Numbered from the stretch's first letter, positions 11,296 to 47,654 are shown. The stretch is DNA of 64,000 bases from Bacteroidales bacterium (GCA_017541145.1 JAFXZT010000155.1:1-64000); one strand, 5' to 3'. Notes: a model not told the origin generated them from the letters alone. Numbers and translations: made by a program.

Positions 11296-11733
11296 TTAGT
11301 TGATACCTTTGGGGTTAGGGCCGTATTTATTGGTTCCGGGTTGACTGTCTAAACAAAATAATATTATCATAATAATTGCTCCAATAATTAATGAAGTCAA
11401 AGTATCTATACTGCCAATTGCAAGTTTTGTTTCTGCAAACGGTATAGCGTAGACTAACAACCACCATGCACTTTTACCGGAGTCGTGCAAACGTCTTACT
11501 TGTAGCCCTAAGGATGGCAATAATAATATGTAGAAATAGATTTTTCCAAAAATAGATGCGTTTTTTGCTATTATATCTGCTTTTGTTACTGCATAGATTG
11601 TTACTACTGTTATGCTATAAATTAAACAGAAAATTAGATAATACAATACCCACATCCAATATTGTTTGCGTCTTGCTCTTCCTTTGAAATCGATGTAATG
11701 ATTTGTGATTACATCAAAGAAATATTTTTTCAT
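11296..11733 (-). CDS. DUF805 family inner-membrane protein
   Basis: About 145 aa when started at the ATG giving MKKYFFDVITNHYIDFKGRARRKQYW. A longer frame opens at 11760, but the family normally begins at this point. Family hallmarks are FKGRARRKQYW at the N-terminus, RRLHDSGKSAWW in the middle and DSQPGTNKYGPNPKG at the C-terminus, with three or four hydrophobic membrane segments between. The function of DUF805 is not established; members are small membrane proteins sometimes linked to stress or envelope loci. It is the first of three small membrane-protein genes on the minus strand; the next starts about 400 bp away. Confidence 0.88.
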   Translation of the reverse strand: MKKYFFDVITNHYIDFKGRARRKQYWMWVLYYLIFCLIYSITVVTIYAVTKADIIAKNASIFGKIYFYILLLPSLGLQVRRLHDSGKSAWWLLVYAIPFAETKLAIGSIDTLTSLIIGAIIMIILFCLDSQPGTNKYGPNPKGIN

Positions 11734-11813
11734 AAAGATTTTTTTAGTAAACAGCTGCAAATTTAATAATATTATTTGTTGTTTTGCTCTTTCGGAAAGA
11801 TTTTTTTTGGGGG

Positions 11814-16305: not shown

Positions 16306-17229
16306 ATGAAACATAAATTCTTATTCTTGATCGTTTTGTTGGCTTTTGCTATGCAGACAATCGCGCAGCAAGATCCGCATTACAGCCACTTTATGTTTAA
16401 TCAGCCGTCATACAATCCGGCATATTGCGGCACAAGTGGAATGATAAACGGTACAATGATATACAGAGATCAGTGGATGGGATTGACAGGCGGTCCTAAA
16501 ACACTGATGCTAAGTGCAGATGCACCGGTAAGATTATTCGGTACATCAGGAGGTGCCGGTATTACGCTGATAAACGATGAAATAGGATACGAATCAAATT
16601 TTACAGCAAAATTGGCTTACGCATATCATATTCAAGCCGGCTCCGGGATGTTGTCATTCGGAGTAGATGCAGGTTTGTTCAACAAGTCGATAAACGGAGA
16701 TTGGCAGTTTCCGGACGAGCATGAATCAATTTTTGCGGGAAAAACACGTAAAATGATATTTGATTTGGGAGCAGGCATGTATTACAATGTAGGCGGCTTA
16801 ACACTCGGATTATCATCAATGCACGTTATGAAACCTGTATTGGATTTTTCGGAAGACGGAGAAACTTATATGGCGAGACATTATTATTTTACGGGAACAT
16901 ATAATATTTCTTTGGCTAATTCGTTATTTGAGTTGACACCTGGTTTCATCCTTATGTCTGACGGCAGTACGATGCAAGCAGATATAAATGTTAATCTTTT
17001 ATACAATAAAAAAGTATGGGGTGGCGTTACTTATAGAAACGAGGACGCGATAGCTATTTTGGCAGGCTTTACTTTGATGGGCGATCTCAAAGTAGGTGCG
17101 GCATACGAGTTTGGGCTCTCGAAATTGCGTAAAACCAACTCGGGCTCATTTGAATTGATGTTGGGATACGCATTTATGCCTGAAAGAAGCAAACCCGCAC
17201 AGAAAGTTCGTAGCGTAAGGTTCTTGTAA
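16306..17229 (+). CDS. porP: T9SS outer-membrane protein, PorP/SprF family
   Basis: 307 aa with a signal peptide (cleavage after AMQTIAQ, about residue 21) and a predicted beta-barrel. QQDPHYSHFMFNQPSYNPAY is the family signature at the mature N-terminus, and LGYAFMPERSKPAQKVRSVRFL is a typical end. PorP/SprF proteins sit in the outer membrane and anchor or support type IX secretion; some family members instead partner individual secreted adhesins. Its place directly before gldK (46 bp gap) is the standard core order porP-K-L-M-N, so I take it as the core subunit. Confidence 0.93.
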   Translation: MKHKFLFLIVLLAFAMQTIAQQDPHYSHFMFNQPSYNPAYCGTSGMINGTMIYRDQWMGLTGGPKTLMLSADAPVRLFGTSGGAGITLINDEIGYESNFTAKLAYAYHIQAGSGMLSFGVDAGLFNKSINGDWQFPDEHESIFAGKTRKMIFDLGAGMYYNVGGLTLGLSSMHVMKPVLDFSEDGETYMARHYYFTGTYNISLANSLFELTPGFILMSDGSTMQADINVNLLYNKKVWGGVTYRNEDAIAILAGFTLMGDLKVGAAYEFGLSKLRKTNSGSFELMLGYAFMPERSKPAQKVRSVRFL

Positions 17230-17274
17230 AAAAAAAGATAATAAAAATATCAGCAAAAATAATAAATAGGTATT

Positions 17275-18714
17275 ATGAAAAAAGTAATTGTAGCAGCGGC
17301 ATCAGGACTATTGATACTCAGCGGATGTAGCAATAGTGGCAACGGTGAACTGATAGGAGCACAGAATCGTCCTGCTAACTATGTTGAAACTGATCCTTAC
17401 GGAATGGTTTTTATTCCACAAGGTAGTTGCACCATAGGACCTAACGATCAAGATGTTCCATTTGCGATGACCGCTCAGGCTAAAACTATTACCGTCGATC
17501 CGTTTTGGATGGACGACACTGAAATCACAAACAATGAATATCGTCAGTTTGTAGAATGGGTTAGGGACTCTATCGCAATGCGTTTGTGTTTGCTCGCAGG
17601 TGCCGGCGAAGGTTCCAAAGGTAATCTTTTCAAAATCGAAGTTGATGAAGAAAAAAACGATCCAAACGAATATGACCCAACTGACCCCAAAACATGTTGG
17701 TTGAATTGGGAAAACAGAGACCTCGTTTGGGATAAATCAGGCAAAGGCGAAGAACGTCAAGCTATTTCTGATGCAGTACAAGATTTGTACCTCATAAAAG
17801 AAGAACGTTTCAATCACCTTCAGGAAATCGATACAAGGAAACTTATCTTTGATTATCAATGGGTAGATCTCCGTCAAGCTGCTCTCAAACAGAACAGATA
17901 CAATTTTAATGAAGATTTTACCGGTGGTAGCTACGAAGGTACTGTTATTGATGCAAAAGGTAATGTTGTTCAGATTCAGGACAGACGCTCTTTCATTATG
18001 CAAGGTCGTATCAATGTATATCCTGATACACTCTGTTGGATGAGCGACTATACATATTCTTACAACGAACCTATGGCTCGTAAGTATTTCTGGCACGTAG
18101 CATTTGATGATTATCCAGTTGTAGGTGTTAATTGGAAACAAGCTACAGCATTCTGTATTTGGCGTTCAGACCTTCTTAACAACTATTTGACACACAATGG
18201 TCAGCCACGTATGGAAGAATACCGACTCCCGACCGAAGCTGAGTGGGAATACGCTGCCCGCGGCGGCTTGGCATTATCAATGTATCCTTGGGGCGGTCCT
18301 TATACAAGAAACAATTCAGGTTGTTTTATCGCAAACTTCAAACCGCTTCGTGGTCGTTATGCTGACGACGGCGCTGCAAGAACAATTCAAGTTGCGACAT
18401 ACGCTCCTAATGAATACGGTCTTTATGATATGGCGGGTAATGTTTCTGAGTGGACATCTAACGCATTTGACGAAAGTGCTTACAGCTATACCCATGATTT
18501 GAACCCTGATTACAGCTACAACGCTTTGGCTGACGATCCTCCAGTATTGAAAAGAAAAGTTATCCGTGGCGGTTCTTGGAAAGACGTCGGATACTATCTC
18601 CAGGTTGGTACACGTACTTACGAGTATCAAGATACTGCAAAGTGCTACATCGGTTTCCGTTGTGTAAGATCATACATGGGACGTAGTGCTTCAGATTGGG
18701 ATTATGGCAAATAA
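17275..18714 (+). CDS. gldK: T9SS ring lipoprotein GldK/PorK
   Basis: 479 aa outer-membrane lipoprotein. Lipobox LSGC with Cys18. An FGE-sulfatase-like fold spans most of the protein: MVFIPQGSCTIGPND, the YRLPTEAEWEYAARGG motif, GLYDMAGNVSEWTSN, KVIRGGSWKD and YIGFRCVRS. A family-typical insertion (about 100-250) interrupts the fold. GldK and GldN form the periplasmic ring of the type IX secretion system. The fold is borrowed from the formylglycine-generating enzyme, but GldK is structural. A strong hairpin follows at 18743-18792, so gldL may not be only a read-through gene. Confidence 0.97.
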   Translation: MKKVIVAAASGLLILSGCSNSGNGELIGAQNRPANYVETDPYGMVFIPQGSCTIGPNDQDVPFAMTAQAKTITVDPFWMDDTEITNNEYRQFVEWVRDSIAMRLCLLAGAGEGSKGNLFKIEVDEEKNDPNEYDPTDPKTCWLNWENRDLVWDKSGKGEERQAISDAVQDLYLIKEERFNHLQEIDTRKLIFDYQWVDLRQAALKQNRYNFNEDFTGGSYEGTVIDAKGNVVQIQDRRSFIMQGRINVYPDTLCWMSDYTYSYNEPMARKYFWHVAFDDYPVVGVNWKQATAFCIWRSDLLNNYLTHNGQPRMEEYRLPTEAEWEYAARGGLALSMYPWGGPYTRNNSGCFIANFKPLRGRYADDGAARTIQVATYAPNEYGLYDMAGNVSEWTSNAFDESAYSYTHDLNPDYSYNALADDPPVLKRKVIRGGSWKDVGYYLQVGTRTYEYQDTAKCYIGFRCVRSYMGRSASDWDYGK

Positions 18715-18742
18715 TGAATTTAATATTTCATAATACTATATG

Positions 18743-18800
18743 CCGATATGCAAAAACGGGAACCAAATCCCAAAACAATTTTTGCATATCGGTATTTTTT
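18743..18800 (+). terminator. terminator between gldK and gldL
   Basis: A perfect 14-bp stem, CCGATATGCAAAAA (18743-18756) with TTTTTGCATATCGG (18779-18792), is followed by TATTTTTTTT. An inner GGG/CCC pair can extend it. The remaining 390 bp to gldL are AT-rich. A weak promoter-like pair (TTTT 19042-19045, 20 nt, TAATTTTA 19066-19073) lies 117 bp before gldL. Confidence 0.85.
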
Positions 18801-19189
18801 TTGTAAAAATAATTGCAGAAGAATATTTTTCTACGATAATTATTACAAAAAAATGCTGTTTTCCTACAAAGATTATACAAACAAACAGACTAAAATCAGT
18901 TTGAAAAATATTTATTTGTAGTTTAAAAACAATACAATAAGTAACAACCATAAAAAAACAGTAAAAAAAGAATCTGTTACTCTTAGGGTTGGAATAAATT
19001 TTGCTTTTTCTTAAAAAAAATTAAAAAAATCTGTTATTAAATTTTTTTAATAAAAAAAAGATATGTAATTTTAGCCGTTGAATTTGCACTTACGTATGTA
19101 CACTTTAAGTGTCAAATCGCGGAAACTAAAGAATTTAAATAAACAAATAATAAATAATAATTTTTCAATTAAACTAAAGAAAACATATT

Positions 19190-20107
19190 ATGGTAGCATT
19201 TAACAAAACCAAAAAATTTGCGAAGATTTTCCAGAAGGTAAACTCGCTTGGTGCTGCTGTCGTTATTGTCGGCGCGTTGTTCAAAATTCAGCACTATCCT
19301 GGTGCATCTGTTATGTTGATGGTAGGTTTGTTGACAGAAGCTGCAATCTTTACTATTACAGCGTTTGCTCCGCTTCCAGTAGAATACCACTGGCATAACA
19401 TCTTCCCGGAATTGTTGATTGGTGAAGAAATTGAAGAAAAAGTGTATGAAGCAAACAACAAACCGGCTCCTGTAGCTCACTTCAATGAGGAAACCGGTGA
19501 AATTGACTGCTCAGACCTTCAGTATTCATTCTCTGGTGGCGCAAGTGCTGGTCCTGCAGCAAAAGGTCCTGTTACCGATGGTACTGCTTTGGCTAAGTTT
19601 AACGAAATGCTTGAAAAATCTAGCAACAACGGTAATTTCTTTGATAAACTCGGTAACTCATTTGCTGATTTCACTGAAAACGTTAAAGGTATGGCTACTG
19701 TAGCTAACTCTGCTGTAGCTGCTAAATCTTTCACAGATAGCCTTTCTTCAGCTTCATCAGCTGTTTCTTCTATTAACTCATCAGCAGAAGATCTTTCTAA
19801 CACACTTAGCAACGTTCAAAACAAATTTGCTGGTGTTTCAGACCTTGATTTCTCTGCTCTTAAATCTGGTAACAAAGAATACAGCGATAATATCTCTAAA
19901 CTCAACAACAATCTTAAAGCTATCAACGGCGTATTTGAACTTCAGCTTGCTGAAATCGACTTCGATACAATGATTGCTGGTCTTAAAGAATCTGTTCAGG
20001 GTGCTAAAGATTACTCTACTGAAGTTACAAAACTCAGCAAGAACCTTCAAGCTCTCAACACAGTTTATGGCAATATGCTTACAGCTTTGAACGTAAAAAT
20101 CAGCTAA
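19190..20107 (+). CDS. gldL: T9SS motor protein GldL/PorL
   Basis: 305 aa inner-membrane protein. Two membrane helices near the N-terminus (about 19-36 and 40-62) contain the conserved KIQHYPGA turn and Glu50 in GLLTEAAIF; this helix-2 glutamate is part of the proton-driven GldLM motor in studied systems. The remaining 240 residues are a cytoplasmic, mostly helical domain rich in Ser, Ala and Asn with predicted coiled coil. gldM follows 76 bp later. Long spacing and a terminator upstream suggest that gldL-gldM form their own transcription unit. Confidence 0.96.
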   Translation: MVAFNKTKKFAKIFQKVNSLGAAVVIVGALFKIQHYPGASVMLMVGLLTEAAIFTITAFAPLPVEYHWHNIFPELLIGEEIEEKVYEANNKPAPVAHFNEETGEIDCSDLQYSFSGGASAGPAAKGPVTDGTALAKFNEMLEKSSNNGNFFDKLGNSFADFTENVKGMATVANSAVAAKSFTDSLSSASSAVSSINSSAEDLSNTLSNVQNKFAGVSDLDFSALKSGNKEYSDNISKLNNNLKAINGVFELQLAEIDFDTMIAGLKESVQGAKDYSTEVTKLSKNLQALNTVYGNMLTALNVKIS

Positions 20108-20183
20108 TAATTTAGACTGAACATCTACAAATTCAAAGTATTAAACATTTTATTCATTTTATAAACTATTTATATTTAAGACA

Positions 20184-21887
20184 ATGAGTGGAGGAGGAAA
20201 AGAAACCCCAAGGCAGGCGATGATAGGTATGATGTACCTATTCTATACCGCACTTTTGGCTTTGAACGTTTCTGCTGAAATTCTTACCGCTTTCACATTG
20301 GTAGACGGTAGTTTGAGAAAAACTAACTCTATCACAGAAGGCGTTATCGAATCGGCAGTAAATGATTTTACAGTTGCCATGAGTACAAACCCTGCCGGAA
20401 CTAAAAAATATAAGGAACTTGCTGACGAAGTAATCGACGCAGCAAACTTCTCTTATAAACAAATTCAGCACTACAAATTAGCTTTGGTTGGTACTCTCGA
20501 AGGCGTTTATACAGGCGATTACAAAGCTGAATACAACGCATCGCTTGACCAACAAGATGCAGATATCGAAATAGCTCTCCGTGATAAATGGTCAGCTGAT
20601 ATGCCTGACGCAAAAGATAAAAATCTCGTTGATATTGACGACCTCGTTTCTAAAAAAGACGATAACAATGTCGGCGGTGAAATCTTTATCCAAAACGGAC
20701 AAGGTCAAAAAGTAGCTGATCAACGTCAAGCATATCGTGAAAAACTTATCGATGTAATCAACAGAGCTACAGACAATAGTCCTAAATCTTTGGAAGCTAA
20801 AGAATCTCTTGCTAAGAGCTTGCAAGAAATGCTTAACACCAACAAACAAAAGTCAGAAAGTGATGATGTTGACTCAGTAGATTGGGCTATTTCTAACTTT
20901 GAGCACTTACCTGCTGCCGGCGTTTTGACTCTTATGACAAAAATGCAGTCAGACGTTCGCAACACAGAATCAATGGTTTTGTCTTACCTTCTTAATCAGA
21001 TTGGTAAAACTGATATGAAGTTCAACGCTATCAAGGCTGTTGTTAACGCTCCTTCAAGCTACGTACTTCAAGGTCAGGAATACAAATCTGAAATCTTTAT
21101 CGCAGCATACGACTCAACCGATAATCCTGAAATTTTGGTAGGCGGTAGCGCAATACCTGTTAAAAACGGTGTTGGTGTCTACACAGGTTCTACTGCAAAC
21201 GTAGGTGCTAAATCTTACAACGGTGTTATCAAGTTGAAAAACAAATCTACCGGTGAGGTAAAAGAATATCCGTTTAAGGGCGAATACGAGGTAGGACAAT
21301 CTTCATTGTCAGTATCTCCAACCAAGATGAACGTTCTTTATATCGGTGTTCCAAACCCAATCGAAATTACTGCATCAGGTACTCCATCTGAAAAAATCGT
21401 TGCAAGTATTTCTTCCGGTAGCTTGGTAAAACAAGGTGGTGCCGGAAATTATGTTGCAAATGTAAAAACTCCGGGTGAAGTTACTATTTCAGTAAGATCA
21501 ACAGAAGGTGACGGTAAAACACTTGGTACTAGAAAATTTCGTGTAAAGAAAGTTCCAGATCCAGTAGCTGTTGTAGGTAGCGACAAAGCTAACAAACGTG
21601 GTGGTAACATCTCTAAAGCTGTTCTTTCAGCTCAAGCAGGTGTTAAAGCAGAGCTTGAAAACTTTGACTTCGATATGAAGTTCCAAGTTGTAAGTTTCCG
21701 CGTTTCTGCTACAATCAAAGGTTTTGCTCAAGACGCACAAATTACCGGTGCAGCATTCAATGCTAACGCTAAACAAATCATCCAACAAGTTCCATCTGGC
21801 GGAAAAGTATACATCGAGGATATCAAAGCAAAAGGTCCTGATGGTACAACACGTGATTTGGGTACACTTTGTTTCAAGGTTAGATAA
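20184..21887 (+). CDS. gldM: T9SS motor protein GldM/PorM
   Basis: 567 aa. One membrane helix near the N-terminus (about 14-36, MIGMMYLFYTALLALNVSAEI) is followed by a long periplasmic stalk of a helical D1 domain and three beta domains (D2-D4), ending LGTLCFKVR. GldM dimers span the inner membrane inside the GldL ring and carry motor energy to the GldK-GldN ring. Length is slightly above the usual 510-520 aa. A strong terminator stands between it and gldN. Confidence 0.96.
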   Translation: MSGGGKETPRQAMIGMMYLFYTALLALNVSAEILTAFTLVDGSLRKTNSITEGVIESAVNDFTVAMSTNPAGTKKYKELADEVIDAANFSYKQIQHYKLALVGTLEGVYTGDYKAEYNASLDQQDADIEIALRDKWSADMPDAKDKNLVDIDDLVSKKDDNNVGGEIFIQNGQGQKVADQRQAYREKLIDVINRATDNSPKSLEAKESLAKSLQEMLNTNKQKSESDDVDSVDWAISNFEHLPAAGVLTLMTKMQSDVRNTESMVLSYLLNQIGKTDMKFNAIKAVVNAPSSYVLQGQEYKSEIFIAAYDSTDNPEILVGGSAIPVKNGVGVYTGSTANVGAKSYNGVIKLKNKSTGEVKEYPFKGEYEVGQSSLSVSPTKMNVLYIGVPNPIEITASGTPSEKIVASISSGSLVKQGGAGNYVANVKTPGEVTISVRSTEGDGKTLGTRKFRVKKVPDPVAVVGSDKANKRGGNISKAVLSAQAGVKAELENFDFDMKFQVVSFRVSATIKGFAQDAQITGAAFNANAKQIIQQVPSGGKVYIEDIKAKGPDGTTRDLGTLCFKVR

Positions 21888-21942
21888 TATTATAAAGGAG
21901 ATATCCAAAAAAATATTCCACCTTTAAACAATATTCTATACT

Positions 21943-21987
21943 AAAAAGAGTTTTAATATTACAGAAGTTTTATTAAAACTCTTTTTT
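21943..21987 (+). terminator. terminator between gldM and gldN
   Basis: A 16-bp perfect stem, AAAAAGAGTTTTAATA (21943-21958) with TATTAAAACTCTTTTT (21971-21986), ends in a T-tract. It lies 55 bp past gldM and 31 bp before the gldN start codon, so it could act as a terminator or as an attenuator of gldN. Confidence 0.85.
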
Positions 21988-22017
21988 TATGGATGTTTAT
22001 TTTATTCGATAATAATT

Positions 22018-22872
22018 ATGAAAAAATTTTTGTTTTTAATGGCAATTGCTGCTGTATTGCAGTGCGTAGATGCAGTAGAATCTCATGCGCAAGTATTGCT
22101 TGGTTTGCCTTACGAAAAGATACATACAGTAAATCGTAAACCTGTTGCTTATCAGTTCGTTAGAGAAGCTGACGTGATGTGGTCGAAGATTATCTGGCGT
22201 CGTATTGAGTTGACAGAAAAAGCCAATCAGCATCTCTACTTCCCTAATGAGCCTCAAGACAATAGAATGAGTTTGATTGACGTAATCCTCGAAGGTATCC
22301 ATACACAAGGTTTAACTGCTTATGGTACTATCGGTGATGACGAATTCAGTAACATCATTACTGAAAAAGAAGTTCATACCAACATGGGTGCTACTCAAAA
22401 AACAATGGATGTAGAAGACCTTGACGGTGTTACTACTACTCAGATTATTGATGAGCCTTATCACTCTGAAGACGTTAAAGCATATTTGCTTAAAGAGCTT
22501 TGGTTCTTTGACAAACAACGTTCTGTTTTGGAAGTAAGAATCATTGGTATTTGCCCTATACGTTACAGATTCCGTGAGGAAGATGTTGACCGTGAAAAAC
22601 CAATTCCTGTAAAAGCTTTTTGGGTATATTATCCGGAAGCTCGTAAAATCCTTTCAAATGCTGAATGTTTCAACCCTCTCAACGATGCACAGCGTTTGAG
22701 CTACGGTGATGTTTTGGAAAAGAGATATTTTTCAAGCTATGTTTACCAGGAATCCAACATGTATAATAACCGTTCTATCAACGAGTATACCACAGGACAA
22801 GAAACATTGTTGGAAGCTGACAAAATCAAAGAAACAATTTTTAATTTCGAACAAGATCTTTGGGAATACTAA
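22018..22872 (+). CDS. gldN: T9SS ring protein GldN/PorN
   Basis: 284 aa periplasmic protein with a signal peptide (cleavage near SHAQ, about residue 25). The motif series GLPYEKIHTVNRKPVAY, ADVMWSKIIWRRIELTEKANQ, YFPNEP, LKELWFFDKQRSVLEVRIIGICP and FWVYYPEARKIL is diagnostic of GldN. It assembles with GldK into the ring under the outer membrane. It is the last gene of the T9SS core cluster, followed by a terminator. No promoter is obvious in the 130 bp before it apart from the attenuator-like hairpin. Confidence 0.96.
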   Translation: MKKFLFLMAIAAVLQCVDAVESHAQVLLGLPYEKIHTVNRKPVAYQFVREADVMWSKIIWRRIELTEKANQHLYFPNEPQDNRMSLIDVILEGIHTQGLTAYGTIGDDEFSNIITEKEVHTNMGATQKTMDVEDLDGVTTTQIIDEPYHSEDVKAYLLKELWFFDKQRSVLEVRIIGICPIRYRFREEDVDREKPIPVKAFWVYYPEARKILSNAECFNPLNDAQRLSYGDVLEKRYFSSYVYQESNMYNNRSINEYTTGQETLLEADKIKETIFNFEQDLWEY

Positions 22873-43114: not shown

Positions 43115-44431
43115 ATGAAACCGTTAAATATAGCAATATTAGGCTGTGGTACAGTAGGCGGTGGTGTTGCAAAGATACTCACCGAACAAAAAGACCTGCT
43201 TTCTAAACGTTCAGGCAGAGAAATTAATTTGAAAGTAATAGCAGAACTCAATCCCGAAGCTGCAATCAAACGTTTCGGACTTGATGCTAAATATTTTGCC
43301 GGAGGCGGCGCACCCGTTTCAAGAGAAGATGCAGGTAACAATATCAAAAAAATCCTTGAGGATAATGATATTGATGTAGTTGTAGAAACTATGGGCGGAA
43401 AAGGTAATTTCGTTCATGATACTTGTTTGGGAGTACTTCAGCACGGGAAAAATCTCGTAACTGCCAACAAAGCTCTTTTGGCTGAGCGTGGTGCAGATAT
43501 TTTTGCTGAGGCTGCTAAAAACAAGCTTCAACTTGGTTTTGAAGCTGCTGTCTGCGGTGCTATTCCTATCATAAAAGGTATCAAAGAATGTTTCACCGGT
43601 GATATTATTCAATCGGTTAGCGGTATCATGAACGGTACTTCTAACTATATCCTTACTCAAATGCAGCAGAAAGGACTTGATTTTGGTGAAGCATTGAAAC
43701 TTGCTCAAGAAAACGGTTATGCAGAGGCTGATCCTTCATTGGATATCAATGGCGGCGATGCTTCTCACAAACTTATTCTTTTGATAAAACTTGCTTACGG
43801 TATGACAGTTACAATGGTAGAACTCGCTACCATAGGTATTCAGGATATCAACAAAAACGATATGGATTTCGCTAAAGAAATCAACGCATCTATCAAATTG
43901 ATTTGTTTGGCAAAACTAAAAGACAACAAAGTTTACGCTACGGTAAGACCAATGGCTGTAAAGAACGACAATACATTGTCACAAGTAAACTTTGCAGTTA
44001 ATGCTGTAAGACTTGACAACAAATATTCTGATACACATTTCCTTATCGGTAAAGGTGCAGGATCTACAGAAACAGCGATGTCAATAGTATCTGATATCGT
44101 GTTTATTGCGCGTCATGGCGAAGTAGCAACTTACAACGAGGAAGACAAATATACATTGGGCGATGCAAATCAGATTTCGTTCCCGTATTTGGTAAGTTTC
44201 AAGACAAAGAACCTTCCGGGTACAACAGGTTTGATTACTACATGTATCGGCAAAAGAGGTATTAATATCGAAACCGTGGGTCACAACCGTTTCTCAGGTG
44301 AAACTGCTGATTTCTCTATTGAAACCGAAACTTGTACATTGGAAGCTATCTCGTTGGCTATCGATGATATCAAAAAGGAAAAACCGGAACTTTTGTTGGA
44401 AGAACCGAAGATATTACCGATATTGTACTAA
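43115..44431 (+). CDS. hom: homoserine dehydrogenase
   Basis: 438 aa. NAD(P)-binding IAILGCGTVGGGVAKIL at the N-terminus, NKALLAERG, the substrate-binding SGIMNGTSNYIL and GYAEADPSLDINGGDASHKL, and a C-terminal ACT domain (about 355-438: LPGTTGLITTCIGKRGINIETVGH) for feedback control. It converts aspartate semialdehyde to homoserine for threonine and methionine. This is the free-standing form, not an aspartokinase fusion. DUF2752 follows 47 bp later; a link in function is unlikely. Confidence 0.96.
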   Translation: MKPLNIAILGCGTVGGGVAKILTEQKDLLSKRSGREINLKVIAELNPEAAIKRFGLDAKYFAGGGAPVSREDAGNNIKKILEDNDIDVVVETMGGKGNFVHDTCLGVLQHGKNLVTANKALLAERGADIFAEAAKNKLQLGFEAAVCGAIPIIKGIKECFTGDIIQSVSGIMNGTSNYILTQMQQKGLDFGEALKLAQENGYAEADPSLDINGGDASHKLILLIKLAYGMTVTMVELATIGIQDINKNDMDFAKEINASIKLICLAKLKDNKVYATVRPMAVKNDNTLSQVNFAVNAVRLDNKYSDTHFLIGKGAGSTETAMSIVSDIVFIARHGEVATYNEEDKYTLGDANQISFPYLVSFKTKNLPGTTGLITTCIGKRGINIETVGHNRFSGETADFSIETETCTLEAISLAIDDIKKEKPELLLEEPKILPILY

Positions 44432-44478: not shown

Positions 44479-44868
44479 ATGAAAGCAAAGAAACTTATGT
44501 TTATTATTTTAGGATTAGCAGCAGTTGTCGGATTGGTGTTAGTCCTAAAATTTTATCAACAACATAACCCCGAAGAAAGTTCTATATTTCCCAAATGCGC
44601 TTTTTTTCAACTCACCGGCTGGAAATGTCCGGGATGCGGCAGTCAAAGGGCAGTACATTATTTTCTTACGGGAGAATTTTCCAAGTCTTTTTTTCAGAAT
44701 CCGGGGCTTTGGGTGATGAGTTCTTATATTATTGTAGTTCTTATTCTCAAAATTCCATACATGAAATACCGTTTCCCTAAATTGTCTCGGGAAATTACAG
44801 GACTTACAGCTTGTTATATATTGTTTTTCTCAATTATAGCATATTGGATTCTGAGAAATGTATTTTGA
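44479..44868 (+). CDS. DUF2752 membrane protein
   Basis: 129 aa from the ATG at 44479; a TTG 3 nt earlier is less likely. Three membrane helices (about 5-24, 70-90, 105-125). Diagnostic motif FFQLTGWKCPGCGSQRAVHYFLTGEFSKSF, with Cys-Pro-x-Cys-Gly-Ser-x-Arg. Function of DUF2752 is unknown. It leads a row of CD225/dispanin-like genes on the same strand, a pairing I have the impression is recurrent in Bacteroidota. Confidence 0.88.
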   Translation: MKAKKLMFIILGLAAVVGLVLVLKFYQQHNPEESSIFPKCAFFQLTGWKCPGCGSQRAVHYFLTGEFSKSFFQNPGLWVMSSYIIVVLILKIPYMKYRFPKLSREITGLTACYILFFSIIAYWILRNVF

Positions 44869-44910
44869 TTATAAATAAACAATTACAAAATTTTTGAAAT
44901 ATAAATAACT

Positions 44911-45582
44911 ATGGCAGACAATACAAGATATTATTATTTTGATGAGAGTGGTCAACACGGACCGCTTCCGTTGAACGAACTAGTTTCAAAGATAAAACCG
45001 CAAACCGATGTTTGGAGTCAAGATCTTTCTTCATGGACACCCGCTAAAGATGTTCCCGAAGTAGCTAATGCTCTTGCTGCTTACAATCAACAAATTCAAT
45101 CAGCTGCTTTTAATCCTACAGTAGAAAATACATCAACTGTTCCGCCTGAAATTCCGCAAATTCCGGCTCAGGGTTTTGAAAATCAGCAACAAGATTACAA
45201 TCAACCTCAGCAAGATATTTCTCAACCTCAACCGCAGAAATATATTCCTATTCAAAACGATAATCAATATCAACAACAGGGTAATCAATATCAACAGCAA
45301 GGATACAATCAACAACAGCAAGGATATTTAAATCCTGACAACGATGCTAAAGCACCAAATTTTACATTGTATATCGTTTTGTCAATTTTAAGTGCAGTTT
45401 TTTGTTGTCTTATTGGCGGTATTGTAGCTGTTTATCAAACAACTGAAGCAAAAAAAGCATATCAATACGGAAATATAGCAAGTTGCAATGAGAAACTTGA
45501 AAAAGCAAAAACATGGATGATTGTTTCTGCTGTGATTGGTATTATTAGTCTTGTTCTAAACATTATTGTTAACTTCCGTTAA
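44911..45582 (+). CDS. GYF_2-CD225/dispanin membrane protein, paralogue 1
   Basis: 223 aa. N-terminal GYF_2 domain (about 6-52: YYYFDESGQHGPLPLNEL, VWSQDLSSWTPAKDVPEV). A Gln/Asn/Tyr-rich, prion-like linker (about 85-142) follows. The C-terminal CD225/dispanin module has two membrane segments (about 149-172, 198-220) around VFCCLIGGIVAVYQTTEAKKAYQYGN and KLEKAKTWMIVSAVIG. The double Cys at the membrane edge recalls the palmitoylated site of animal IFITM proteins, but no such role is known in bacteria. GYF_2 suggests binding to a peptide or partner in the cytoplasm. First of five related neighbours. Confidence 0.87.
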   Translation: MADNTRYYYFDESGQHGPLPLNELVSKIKPQTDVWSQDLSSWTPAKDVPEVANALAAYNQQIQSAAFNPTVENTSTVPPEIPQIPAQGFENQQQDYNQPQQDISQPQPQKYIPIQNDNQYQQQGNQYQQQGYNQQQQGYLNPDNDAKAPNFTLYIVLSILSAVFCCLIGGIVAVYQTTEAKKAYQYGNIASCNEKLEKAKTWMIVSAVIGIISLVLNIIVNFR

Positions 45583-45607
45583 TAAAAATAGCTTGCAGAA
45601 GCGTTGA

Positions 45608-45652
45608 ATAACAGCGAAAAAACCTCAATACTTAGTGTTTTTTCGCTGTTAT
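45608..45652 (+). terminator. long hairpin between dispanin genes 1 and 2
   Basis: A perfect 16-bp stem, ATAACAGCGAAAAAAC (45608-45623) with GTTTTTTCGCTGTTAT (45637-45652). No T-run follows, but the stem itself is A/T-rich. It ends 13 bp before the next start codon, so it may be a terminator, a processing site or a translational control element. Confidence 0.6.
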
Positions 45653-45665
45653 CTAATATAATAAG

Positions 45666-46202
45666 ATGTCATATTATTTTTATATAGATAAATATGGTAA
45701 TCAAGGCGGACCGTTAGCAGCGGAAGAACTTGTAAAAGTTATAAATCAAGATACATTGGTTTGGAATGATACTCTTGTAGAGTGGACTCATGCCGATAAT
45801 GTTCCTGAAATTGTACAAGCTTTTAATCATCAGAATTATTTGTCTCAACAATCTTTTGTTAATGGTTATAATCAAGATGTAGGATATGATTATTACATCA
45901 ATTATAATCAGCGTAAGACTTGGAGTAATTCCTTTAATCGGGATGTTAAAAATACTTCGACTAATCAAACTTCAGTTTTTAACAAATACTTATTTTTGAT
46001 TTTGTTCGGGATGTTTACTTGTGTTTGTACATTTCCGTTTGGTATTTATGCAATTGCAAAACTCTTAGATGCTAAAAAAGCATATCGAAACGGTGATATT
46101 AATACATGTAATCATGAATTAAACAGATGTCATCGTTGGACCTCGATTGAAGTATTTGTATGGATTGTGTGTATGATTTTAGGTTTGATTATGTTATTGT
46201 AA
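45666..46202 (+). CDS. GYF_2-CD225/dispanin membrane protein, paralogue 2
   Basis: 178 aa. GYF_2 (about 3-50: YYFYIDKYGNQGGPLAAEEL, LVWNDTLVEWTHADNVPEI), a Tyr/Asn-rich linker, and a CD225-like end with two membrane segments (about 108-131, 157-177). FPFGIYAIAKLLDAKKAYRNGDINTCNHEL matches the loop of paralogue 1. Clearly related to its neighbours but diverged, so this is an old duplication. Confidence 0.85.
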   Translation: MSYYFYIDKYGNQGGPLAAEELVKVINQDTLVWNDTLVEWTHADNVPEIVQAFNHQNYLSQQSFVNGYNQDVGYDYYINYNQRKTWSNSFNRDVKNTSTNQTSVFNKYLFLILFGMFTCVCTFPFGIYAIAKLLDAKKAYRNGDINTCNHELNRCHRWTSIEVFVWIVCMILGLIMLL

Positions 46203-46259
46203 AGCATTTTTTAAATGGTAAACAAATTATAAAACAACAATAAAAAAGTAATTAAAAAG

Positions 46260-46790
46260 ATGTCAGAACAATATTTTTATTATGATGGTAACGGACAAAG
46301 AGGTCCGGTAGATTTGAATGAACTTGTTACTAAAATTAATCTTGATACTGATATTTGGTGCCCTAATCTGTCAGATTGGACAGCTGCCAAAAATGTTCCT
46401 GAAGTAGTAGCTGCTTACAACAGATATCAAGAACAATTGAAATCTCAAAATTCTTTCAATATTTCTAACGGTCAGAATCCAAATTATTATCGACAAAACA
46501 ATTATCAACAAAACAATCGTCCTTATCCGGATCCCAATGAACCAAACTTTACACTTTATATTATATTGTCAGCAATTTGTATTGCAGCAGTATGTTTGCC
46601 GTTTGGTATCGTTGCATTAATCAAAACTCTTAATGCTCAAAAAGCATATAACCGAGGCGATGTTAATGGTTGTAATATTGATCTCAAATCAGCAAAACAT
46701 TGGTTGATTGCATCTCTTGTTGGTGTGGTAGTATTGGTTGTATTATATATGGTATTTATTATGGTATTCATAAAAATGCAAGTGAGATAA
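46260..46790 (+). CDS. GYF_2-CD225/dispanin membrane protein, paralogue 3
   Basis: 176 aa. GYF_2 (about 4-51: QYFYYDGNGQRGPVDLNEL, IWCPNLSDWTAAKNVPEV), a short Asn/Gln/Tyr linker, then PNFTLYIILSAICIAAVCLP FGIVALIKTLNAQKAYNRGD and SAKHWLIASLVGVVVLVVLY. The closest in layout to paralogue 1 (both have PNFTLYI at the start of the first membrane segment). The next gene starts 6 bp after its stop, so paralogues 3 and 4 are translated together. Confidence 0.87.
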   Translation: MSEQYFYYDGNGQRGPVDLNELVTKINLDTDIWCPNLSDWTAAKNVPEVVAAYNRYQEQLKSQNSFNISNGQNPNYYRQNNYQQNNRPYPDPNEPNFTLYIILSAICIAAVCLPFGIVALIKTLNAQKAYNRGDVNGCNIDLKSAKHWLIASLVGVVVLVVLYMVFIMVFIKMQVR

Positions 46791-46796
46791 AAAATT

Positions 46797-47321
46797 ATGG
46801 ATTATTCTTATTTTTATTACGAAGGTTCACAAACTTTCGGGCCTGTAAACTTGGAAGAACTGATTAAACATATTACACCCGATACTCAAATTTGGCGTAA
46901 TGAACTGGAAGACTGGCGAAGTGCAAAATCTGTTCCTGAAGTAAATATTGCACTTCAGGAACAAATATCAAGAATGCAGCAAGTAACACCTCCTCCGCAT
47001 GCTTCGTATAACAATAATTCTGCAACATCGAAGACCGATTCTCGTGGATATGTTATTGGAAACGACGGCAAGAGGTATTCTTTACGTTTGAAACCTAATT
47101 ATATTTTTTGGTATATTATATCTGTTATTTTTTTAATTTTCTTTCTGCCGGGTGGGCTTTTGAATATTGTTACTTTAATATTTTTACAGAAAAGTCAACA
47201 TAATTTTGAACATAATAACATTAAAAAATCCCTCGAACAGATGGATAATGCAAAATTGTTTTTTTTTATTGCATTGATTTTGGGGGTTGTATCGAGATTT
47301 ATGTTTATTAGTATGTTGTAA
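46797..47321 (+). CDS. GYF_2-dispanin-like membrane protein, paralogue 4
   Basis: 174 aa. GYF_2 (about 4-51: YFYYEGSQTFGPVNLEEL, IWRNELEDWRSAKSVPEV), a linker with a DSRGYVIGNDGKRYSL segment, and two membrane helices (about 102-125, 152-172). The CD225 loop is degenerate: PGGLLNIVTLIFLQKSQHNFEHNN keeps the pattern but has lost the A-x-x-A-Y-x-x-G-D core. It is the most diverged full-length member of the row. Confidence 0.8.
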   Translation: MDYSYFYYEGSQTFGPVNLEELIKHITPDTQIWRNELEDWRSAKSVPEVNIALQEQISRMQQVTPPPHASYNNNSATSKTDSRGYVIGNDGKRYSLRLKPNYIFWYIISVIFLIFFLPGGLLNIVTLIFLQKSQHNFEHNNIKKSLEQMDNAKLFFFIALILGVVSRFMFISML

Positions 47322-47333
47322 AAGTCGGTTGAT

Positions 47334-47654
47334 GTGGAACATAAAAATCTTGATTATAATTTACAGCCTCCGAGATACAATCCGTACAAAATGCCGGATT
47401 TTACTACAATGATTGTAATATCTGTACTTGCAATCGGATATTGTTTGCCGTGTGGTATAGTAGCACTTCTGAAAATATTAAAATCACAAAAGGCTTGGAA
47501 TTCAGGCGAATATGAATATAGCTTGGAAGAATATGAAAAGTCAAAAAAATGGTGTATAGCCGGAATAATTATCTTGGTAGTATTTATTTTCTTAGAATTT
47601 GTTGCCCCGTTATTATTTATATTCAGCGTATTCTTCACAGCCGCTTTTGCTTGA
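47334..47654 (+). CDS. CD225/dispanin protein without GYF_2, paralogue 5
   Basis: 106 aa from a GTG start at 47334; the ATG two bases earlier is in another frame, and no other in-frame start gives the domain. It lacks the GYF_2 part and begins with a short polar stretch, then MPDFTTMIVISVLAIGYCLPCGIVALLKILKSQKAWNSGEY, a good CD225 match with Cys at the membrane edge, and KSKKWCIAGIIILVVF. A hydrophobic tail (FIFSVFFTAAFA) ends it. 12 bp after paralogue 4. It could be a 5-prime-truncated duplicate or a natural single-domain member. Confidence 0.75.
   Translation: MEHKNLDYNLQPPRYNPYKMPDFTTMIVISVLAIGYCLPCGIVALLKILKSQKAWNSGEYEYSLEEYEKSKKWCIAGIIILVVFIFLEFVAPLLFIFSVFFTAAFA

Follow-up and report, generated by a model that had tools for sequence, protein, structure and literature searches.

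We analyzed a row of six genes in a 64,000-nucleotide stretch of DNA from a Bacteroidales bacterium (GCA_017541145.1, JAFXZT010000155.1:1-64000), which is referred to here as the window. The row is a DUF2752 gene and five CD225 copies (A to E). On balance, we favor the view that it is a larger version of a two-gene membrane module that is widespread in bacteria, with DUF2752 as the core and CD225 proteins as adaptors. A preliminary description of this DNA had not noticed that CD225 and DUF2752 genes are a widespread pair or that DUF2752 has alternative small membrane-protein partners.

A DUF2752 gene followed by five CD225 copies

The preliminary description reported five tandem CD225-like genes, four with a GYF_2 domain and the last without. 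This layout was confirmed by six intact open reading frames (ORFs) at the same position, all on the + strand, together with Pfam matches and alignment. The features are as follows.

43115 to 44431, + strand: homoserine dehydrogenase gene (named from sequence), a genomic neighbor conserved in the genus, outside the module
44479 to 44868, + strand: DUF2752 gene, 129 amino acids (aa), Pfam 57 bits, presumed core
44626 to 44649, + strand: CPGCGSQR motif of DUF2752 (residues 50 to 57)
44911 to 45582, + strand: copy A, GYF_2-CD225, 223 aa (GYF_2, 44929 to 45060; CD225, 45370 to 45558), with a Gln/Pro-rich linker
45603 to 45657, + strand: terminator-like hairpin between A and B (-26.1 kcal/mol; z, -5.9)
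45666 to 46202, + strand: copy B, GYF_2-CD225, 178 aa, CD225 part diverged and under the Pfam cutoff
46260 to 46790, + strand: copy C, GYF_2-CD225, 176 aa, structure predicted
46797 to 47321, + strand: copy D, GYF_2-CD225, 174 aa, zero Cys, CD225 slightly under the Pfam cutoff
47334 to 47654, + strand: copy E, CD225 without GYF, 106 aa, GTG start

In codon signature, all six ORFs match the conserved genes of the genome, and this signature is absent from the other five frames. The frames of the row are open and show no decay. The gaps between C and D and between D and E are 6 to 12 nt, which is operon-like. The hairpin between A and B was absent from the matches of a consensus terminator scan, but it may split B to E from the first transcript.

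The earlier domain calls largely stood when tested by profile (Pfam cutoffs of 27 bits for DUF2752, 25.8 bits for GYF_2, and 27.1 bits for CD225). The first protein is a DUF2752 family member by its Pfam score and its CPxCGxxR motif. GYF_2 was above the cutoff in A, B, C, and D (44, 34, 41, and 46 bits, respectively), as was CD225 in A, C, and E (55, 46, and 41 bits, respectively). However, the CD225 call was under the cutoff for B (21.9 bits; E value, 2e-4) and narrowly so for D (26.4 bits; E value, 7e-6), which did pass in a genome-wide search (28.1 bits). We still counted B and D as CD225 proteins, since both align with A, C, and relatives along the full length of the domain. Hydropathy and alignment revealed the two hydrophobic stretches and the conserved loop of CD225 in the window copies. 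The first helix has CC in A, CxC in B, diverged cysteines in C and E, and none in D. The window copies matched the NCBIfam CCC-motif family (NF040945) weakly, with a best score of 25.6 bits versus a cutoff of 65.

The copies had been described as strongly diverged with the same layout, and their pairwise identities (42 to 53% in the GYF part and 20 to 45% in the CD225 part) agree with this. All four GYF domains of the window have xL where relatives have GM, which supports local multiplication. In a tree, the window copies grouped together, though support was weak (75/33), and the branches of B, D, and E were long. These branches, the lack of cysteine in D, and the lack of GYF in E make specialization among the copies plausible at the sequence level.

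The extra copies might instead be drifting duplicates, with only DUF2752 and A (perhaps also C) functional and with B, D, and E heading to loss. The long branches of these three copies would fit, and so would the low CD225 scores of B and D, the missing cysteines of D, and a hairpin that may cut B to E off from the first transcript. However, all five frames are open with a coding signature, the GYF aromatic positions are retained in the alignment of A to D, and C, D, and E have operon-like spacing. Also, other Bacteroidales carry CD225 genes in tandem arrays too (for example, loci L122, L139, L159, and L188). We consider drift unlikely.

DUF2752 adjoins CD225 genes in the genus and beyond

In a genome-wide profile search, every CD225 match of the window's genome was inside this cluster. 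CD225 is present in 16 of 18 genomes of the genus, with one to three matches each versus four in the window's genome. The five-copy row had been called a local expansion, and the lower numbers in sister genomes bear this out. GYF_2-CD225, usually one copy, adjoins DUF2752 in all 14 genus loci that have enough sequence. DUF2752 heads the row in the window, as had been described, but in relatives it comes after the CD225 gene or genes. The order in the genus is one or two GYF_2-CD225 copies and then DUF2752, with a third copy after DUF2752 in one genome (G015). In 13 of the 15 loci of the genus, a gene of the homoserine dehydrogenase family borders the module, which mostly comes directly after it (the other two were unresolved by crude gene calling). 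The rest of the surroundings is ordinary chromosome, judging by gene names read from the sequences.

Elsewhere in the window, positions 11296 to 11760 encode a DUF805 membrane protein (in locus L062, a GYF_2-DUF805 protein is a DUF2752 neighbor). By its sequences, the row at positions 16306 to 22872 resembles a secretion and gliding cluster of the PorP/GldKLMN type. Apart from copies A to D, we found a single GYF_2 protein in the genome, an SPFH/Band 7 protein that has the domain at its C-terminal end (L013:5210-6343).

Among 296 genomes of the phylum, CD225 was found in five (one match was weak and interrupted by stops), and DUF2752 was found in 154. Outside the genus, the good CD225 matches were in three genomes, and DUF2752 is immediately 3' of CD225 in each. 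We also scanned GTDB for CD225, which yielded at least 579 confirmed stretches, and kept the best-scoring 80 loci (Bacteroidota and Actinomycetota), a nonrandom sample. In 61 of these best 80 loci, a same-strand DUF2752 gene was no more than 150 nt away, and the two genes often overlapped. DUF2752 belongs to the set, in line with the idea in the preliminary description, and the clustering is not confined to this genome. The gene was further away in 2 of the remaining loci and outside the locus in 17. We searched 16 of those 17 genomes, and all 16 had DUF2752 elsewhere; its neighbor there was often a further CD225 gene or, in the mycobacteria, a TM2 gene. In some mycobacteria and Bacteroidales, genes of CD225 arrays also lack an adjoining DUF2752.

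DUF2752 was the only neighbor family that recurred in many of the best 80 loci in both phyla; others were lineage specific. The N-terminal parts of the CD225 ORFs in these loci were more varied (GYF in 20, a zinc ribbon in 3, TIR in 1, and mostly Pro/Gln-rich or short sequences in the others). In mycobacterial loci L244, L245, and L249, DUF2752 (with TM2 in L249) is just before an apparent pyruvate kinase gene, which is a recurring place.

Phage defense was also suggested in the preliminary description, and CD225 is the family of the IFITM proteins. The cluster would then be an IFITM-like device with which the membrane resists phage entry or lysis. Mycobacterial CD225 proteins expressed in human cells restrict influenza virus (PMC4488726), which indicates that the CD225 domain can act on membranes. 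Also, one TIR-CD225 fusion has DUF2752 directly after it (L129:5452-6249, Ilyomonas limi), although it is the only immunity-type link among the best 80 loci. However, PADLOC did not match the cluster except for KwaA at noise level (14.8 bits), and throughout the genus the module occupies a constant chromosomal position next to housekeeping genes. The proposed check for nearby defense genes found none that recurred as a neighbor in the best 80 CD225 loci. On these results, we rejected a defense island. A phage or mobile origin was rejected because the viral contigs scanned contained no relative. The only phage-labeled record with both genes (MT839860.1, locus L235, "Bacteriophage sp.," UNVERIFIED) carries, besides CD225 and DUF2752, an ABC transporter and apparent genes for pyrimidine synthesis, and it is probably a mislabeled bacterial contig. 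The module looks like housekeeping rather than phage defense, which we consider very unlikely.

DUF2752 lineages track partner type

The window's genome has a second DUF2752 gene on contig C120, with a TM2 gene directly 5' (the pair at L012:4987-5728). Therefore, both partner types occur in one genome. To survey partners, we used 60 Bacteroidota DUF2752 loci, approximately one per genus, from the stronger matches among the phylum genomes. An adjoining same-strand partner was present in 50 of the 60 (TM2 in 30, CCC-motif in 12, DUF4234 in 3, DUF5684 in 3, RDD in 1, and GYF_2-DUF805 in 1). The TM2, CCC-motif (NF040945), DUF4234, and DUF5684 proteins are different families from the window copies, but they too are small membrane proteins in the same place beside DUF2752.

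When partner type was mapped onto a 122-protein DUF2752 tree, it required 11 changes versus 50.4 when shuffled (0 of 200 shuffles were as low), with some of this clustering coming from relatedness alone. Two rows of the tree (L157_5649 and L172_6095) were apparently mislabeled by the distance rule, and correcting them would lower the count of changes. In the flavobacterial loci L157, L158, L164, L172, L179, L186, L187, and L192, a CCC-motif-DUF2752 pair and a CD225-DUF2752 pair are side by side, and the two DUF2752 proteins are in different tree groups. In five of these (L158, L179, L186, L187, and L192), each of the two DUF2752 proteins grouped by the type of its partner rather than with the DUF2752 next to it. 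Among our results, this splitting by partner type argues most strongly for a functional unit.

Predicted structures and conserved cysteines

The AlphaFold model of DUF2752 (pLDDT, 95.8) has three long helices and some shorter ones. Residues C50, C53, G54, and R57 are invariant in 61 sequences, and C40, N74, R126, and N127 are nearly so. Positive residues at the N terminus and in the loop that leads into the last helix place the Cys region, by prediction, on the outer face of the inner membrane. The CPxCGxQR motif and E. coli DsbB (PCVLCIYER) share a CxxCxxxR spacing, which raises the idea that DUF2752 is a DsbB-like thiol oxidoreductase that CD225 merely stabilizes. However, DsbB has four helices rather than three long ones, a PDB sequence search with DUF2752 returned no match, and a PDB fold search with the model matched neither DsbB nor any other entry (best E value, 7.6). 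We rejected DsbB homology, and a DsbB-like role seems scarcely credible.

It is also possible that DUF2752 and its partner share a thiol/metal site, which is a weakly supported chemical version of the core-adaptor model. The three DUF2752 cysteines and a membrane cysteine of the partner (CD225 CC, CCC, TM2, or DUF4234) would bind metal or pass oxidation. The conservation of C40, C50, C53, and R57 fits this, and a cysteine is present in every classified partner that adjoins DUF2752. In TM2 proteins, a second-helix cysteine was present in 31 of 31 linked to DUF2752 versus 22 of 38 others (P = 2e-5), with scoring partly by eye (the script gave 29 of 30 versus 13 of 29 before hand correction). However, most of the linked TM2 proteins fall into one or two groups of relatives, which means that the test is not independent of ancestry, and 58% of unlinked TM2 proteins also carry the cysteine. 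Furthermore, the CC motif is retained in CD225 proteins without an adjoining DUF2752, and copy D has no cysteine at all. Because of the confounding by ancestry and the hand correction, we rejected the membrane cysteine as a signature of DUF2752 partners and retained it only as a rival explanation, which we regard as rather unlikely.

In the model of copy C (pLDDT, 82.6; pTM, 0.43), the GYF domain is good, the linker has low confidence, and the CD225 part is helical. The GYF fold of this copy matches Tic56, GltJ of Myxococcus, and GIGYF2, and the GYF domain also matches GltJ/AglX (7z3c) by sequence profile. The window GYF domains differ from these in being joined to CD225, and the window copies are not gliding, translation, or plastid-import proteins. 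Pro-rich linkers were found in sister copies, and GYF binding to them is a candidate interaction only. For CD225, the closest solved sequence by profile is PRRT1. PRRT1/SynDIG4 is an AMPA-receptor auxiliary factor (PMC12133753, PMC11798926), which is a parallel by analogy and not evidence of a common function.

Discussion

We propose that DUF2752 is the constant core of the module, with three transmembrane helices and a conserved Cys/Arg/Asn site that would face the outer side of the inner membrane. CD225 proteins would be small accessory subunits, with their helices beside the core in the membrane. Their cytoplasmic N-terminal part (GYF here and elsewhere a zinc ribbon, a Pro-rich tail, nothing, or once TIR) would recruit a partner, which might be a protein of the cytoplasm or a Pro-rich linker in a sister copy. 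In this way, the accessory subunit could regulate the core or couple its state to the cytoplasm. With a single adaptor gene multiplied to five, one core might be served by alternative adaptors. We infer the physical complex, its topology, the adaptor role, and the alternative assembly, and a stable gene pair can also share a pathway without contact.

IFITM proteins have been proposed to be descendants of bacterial CD225 proteins, and bacterial dispanins were already known in several phyla (PMC3282796). The window copies share with the CD225/dispanin family (IFITM and PRRT1/SynDIG4) the two hydrophobic stretches, cysteine in the first of these (not in D), and the conserved loop. They differ in having GYF_2 in front, in their tandem row of five, and in their fixed DUF2752 neighbor. 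CD225, and hence the root of IFITM, might have started out as an accessory subunit, one of several alternatives, in an undescribed bacterial membrane system with a DUF2752 core, with the window lineage having multiplied its adaptors to tune one core by different GYF inputs. We offer this tentatively, as an idea that falls just short of probable.

The families themselves are already known, but we did not find the pairing, the partner exchange, or the five-fold row described in the open-access literature searched. The term DUF2752 was absent from that literature, which also yielded no paper on CD225, GYF, and bacteria together. The pairing may be visible in gene-neighborhood databases. The terms GYF, operon, and neighbor are absent from the dispanin paper (PMC3282796), and papers on TM2 salt tolerance and on Rv1616 gave no function.

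The pairing with DUF2752 lowers the likelihood that these CD225 proteins act in phage defense. A near-constant genetic partner is also a handle on the native role of bacterial CD225, because DUF2752 can be tested together with its CD225 protein. This would give a first functional context to the DUF2752, TM2, CCC-motif, and DUF4234 families.
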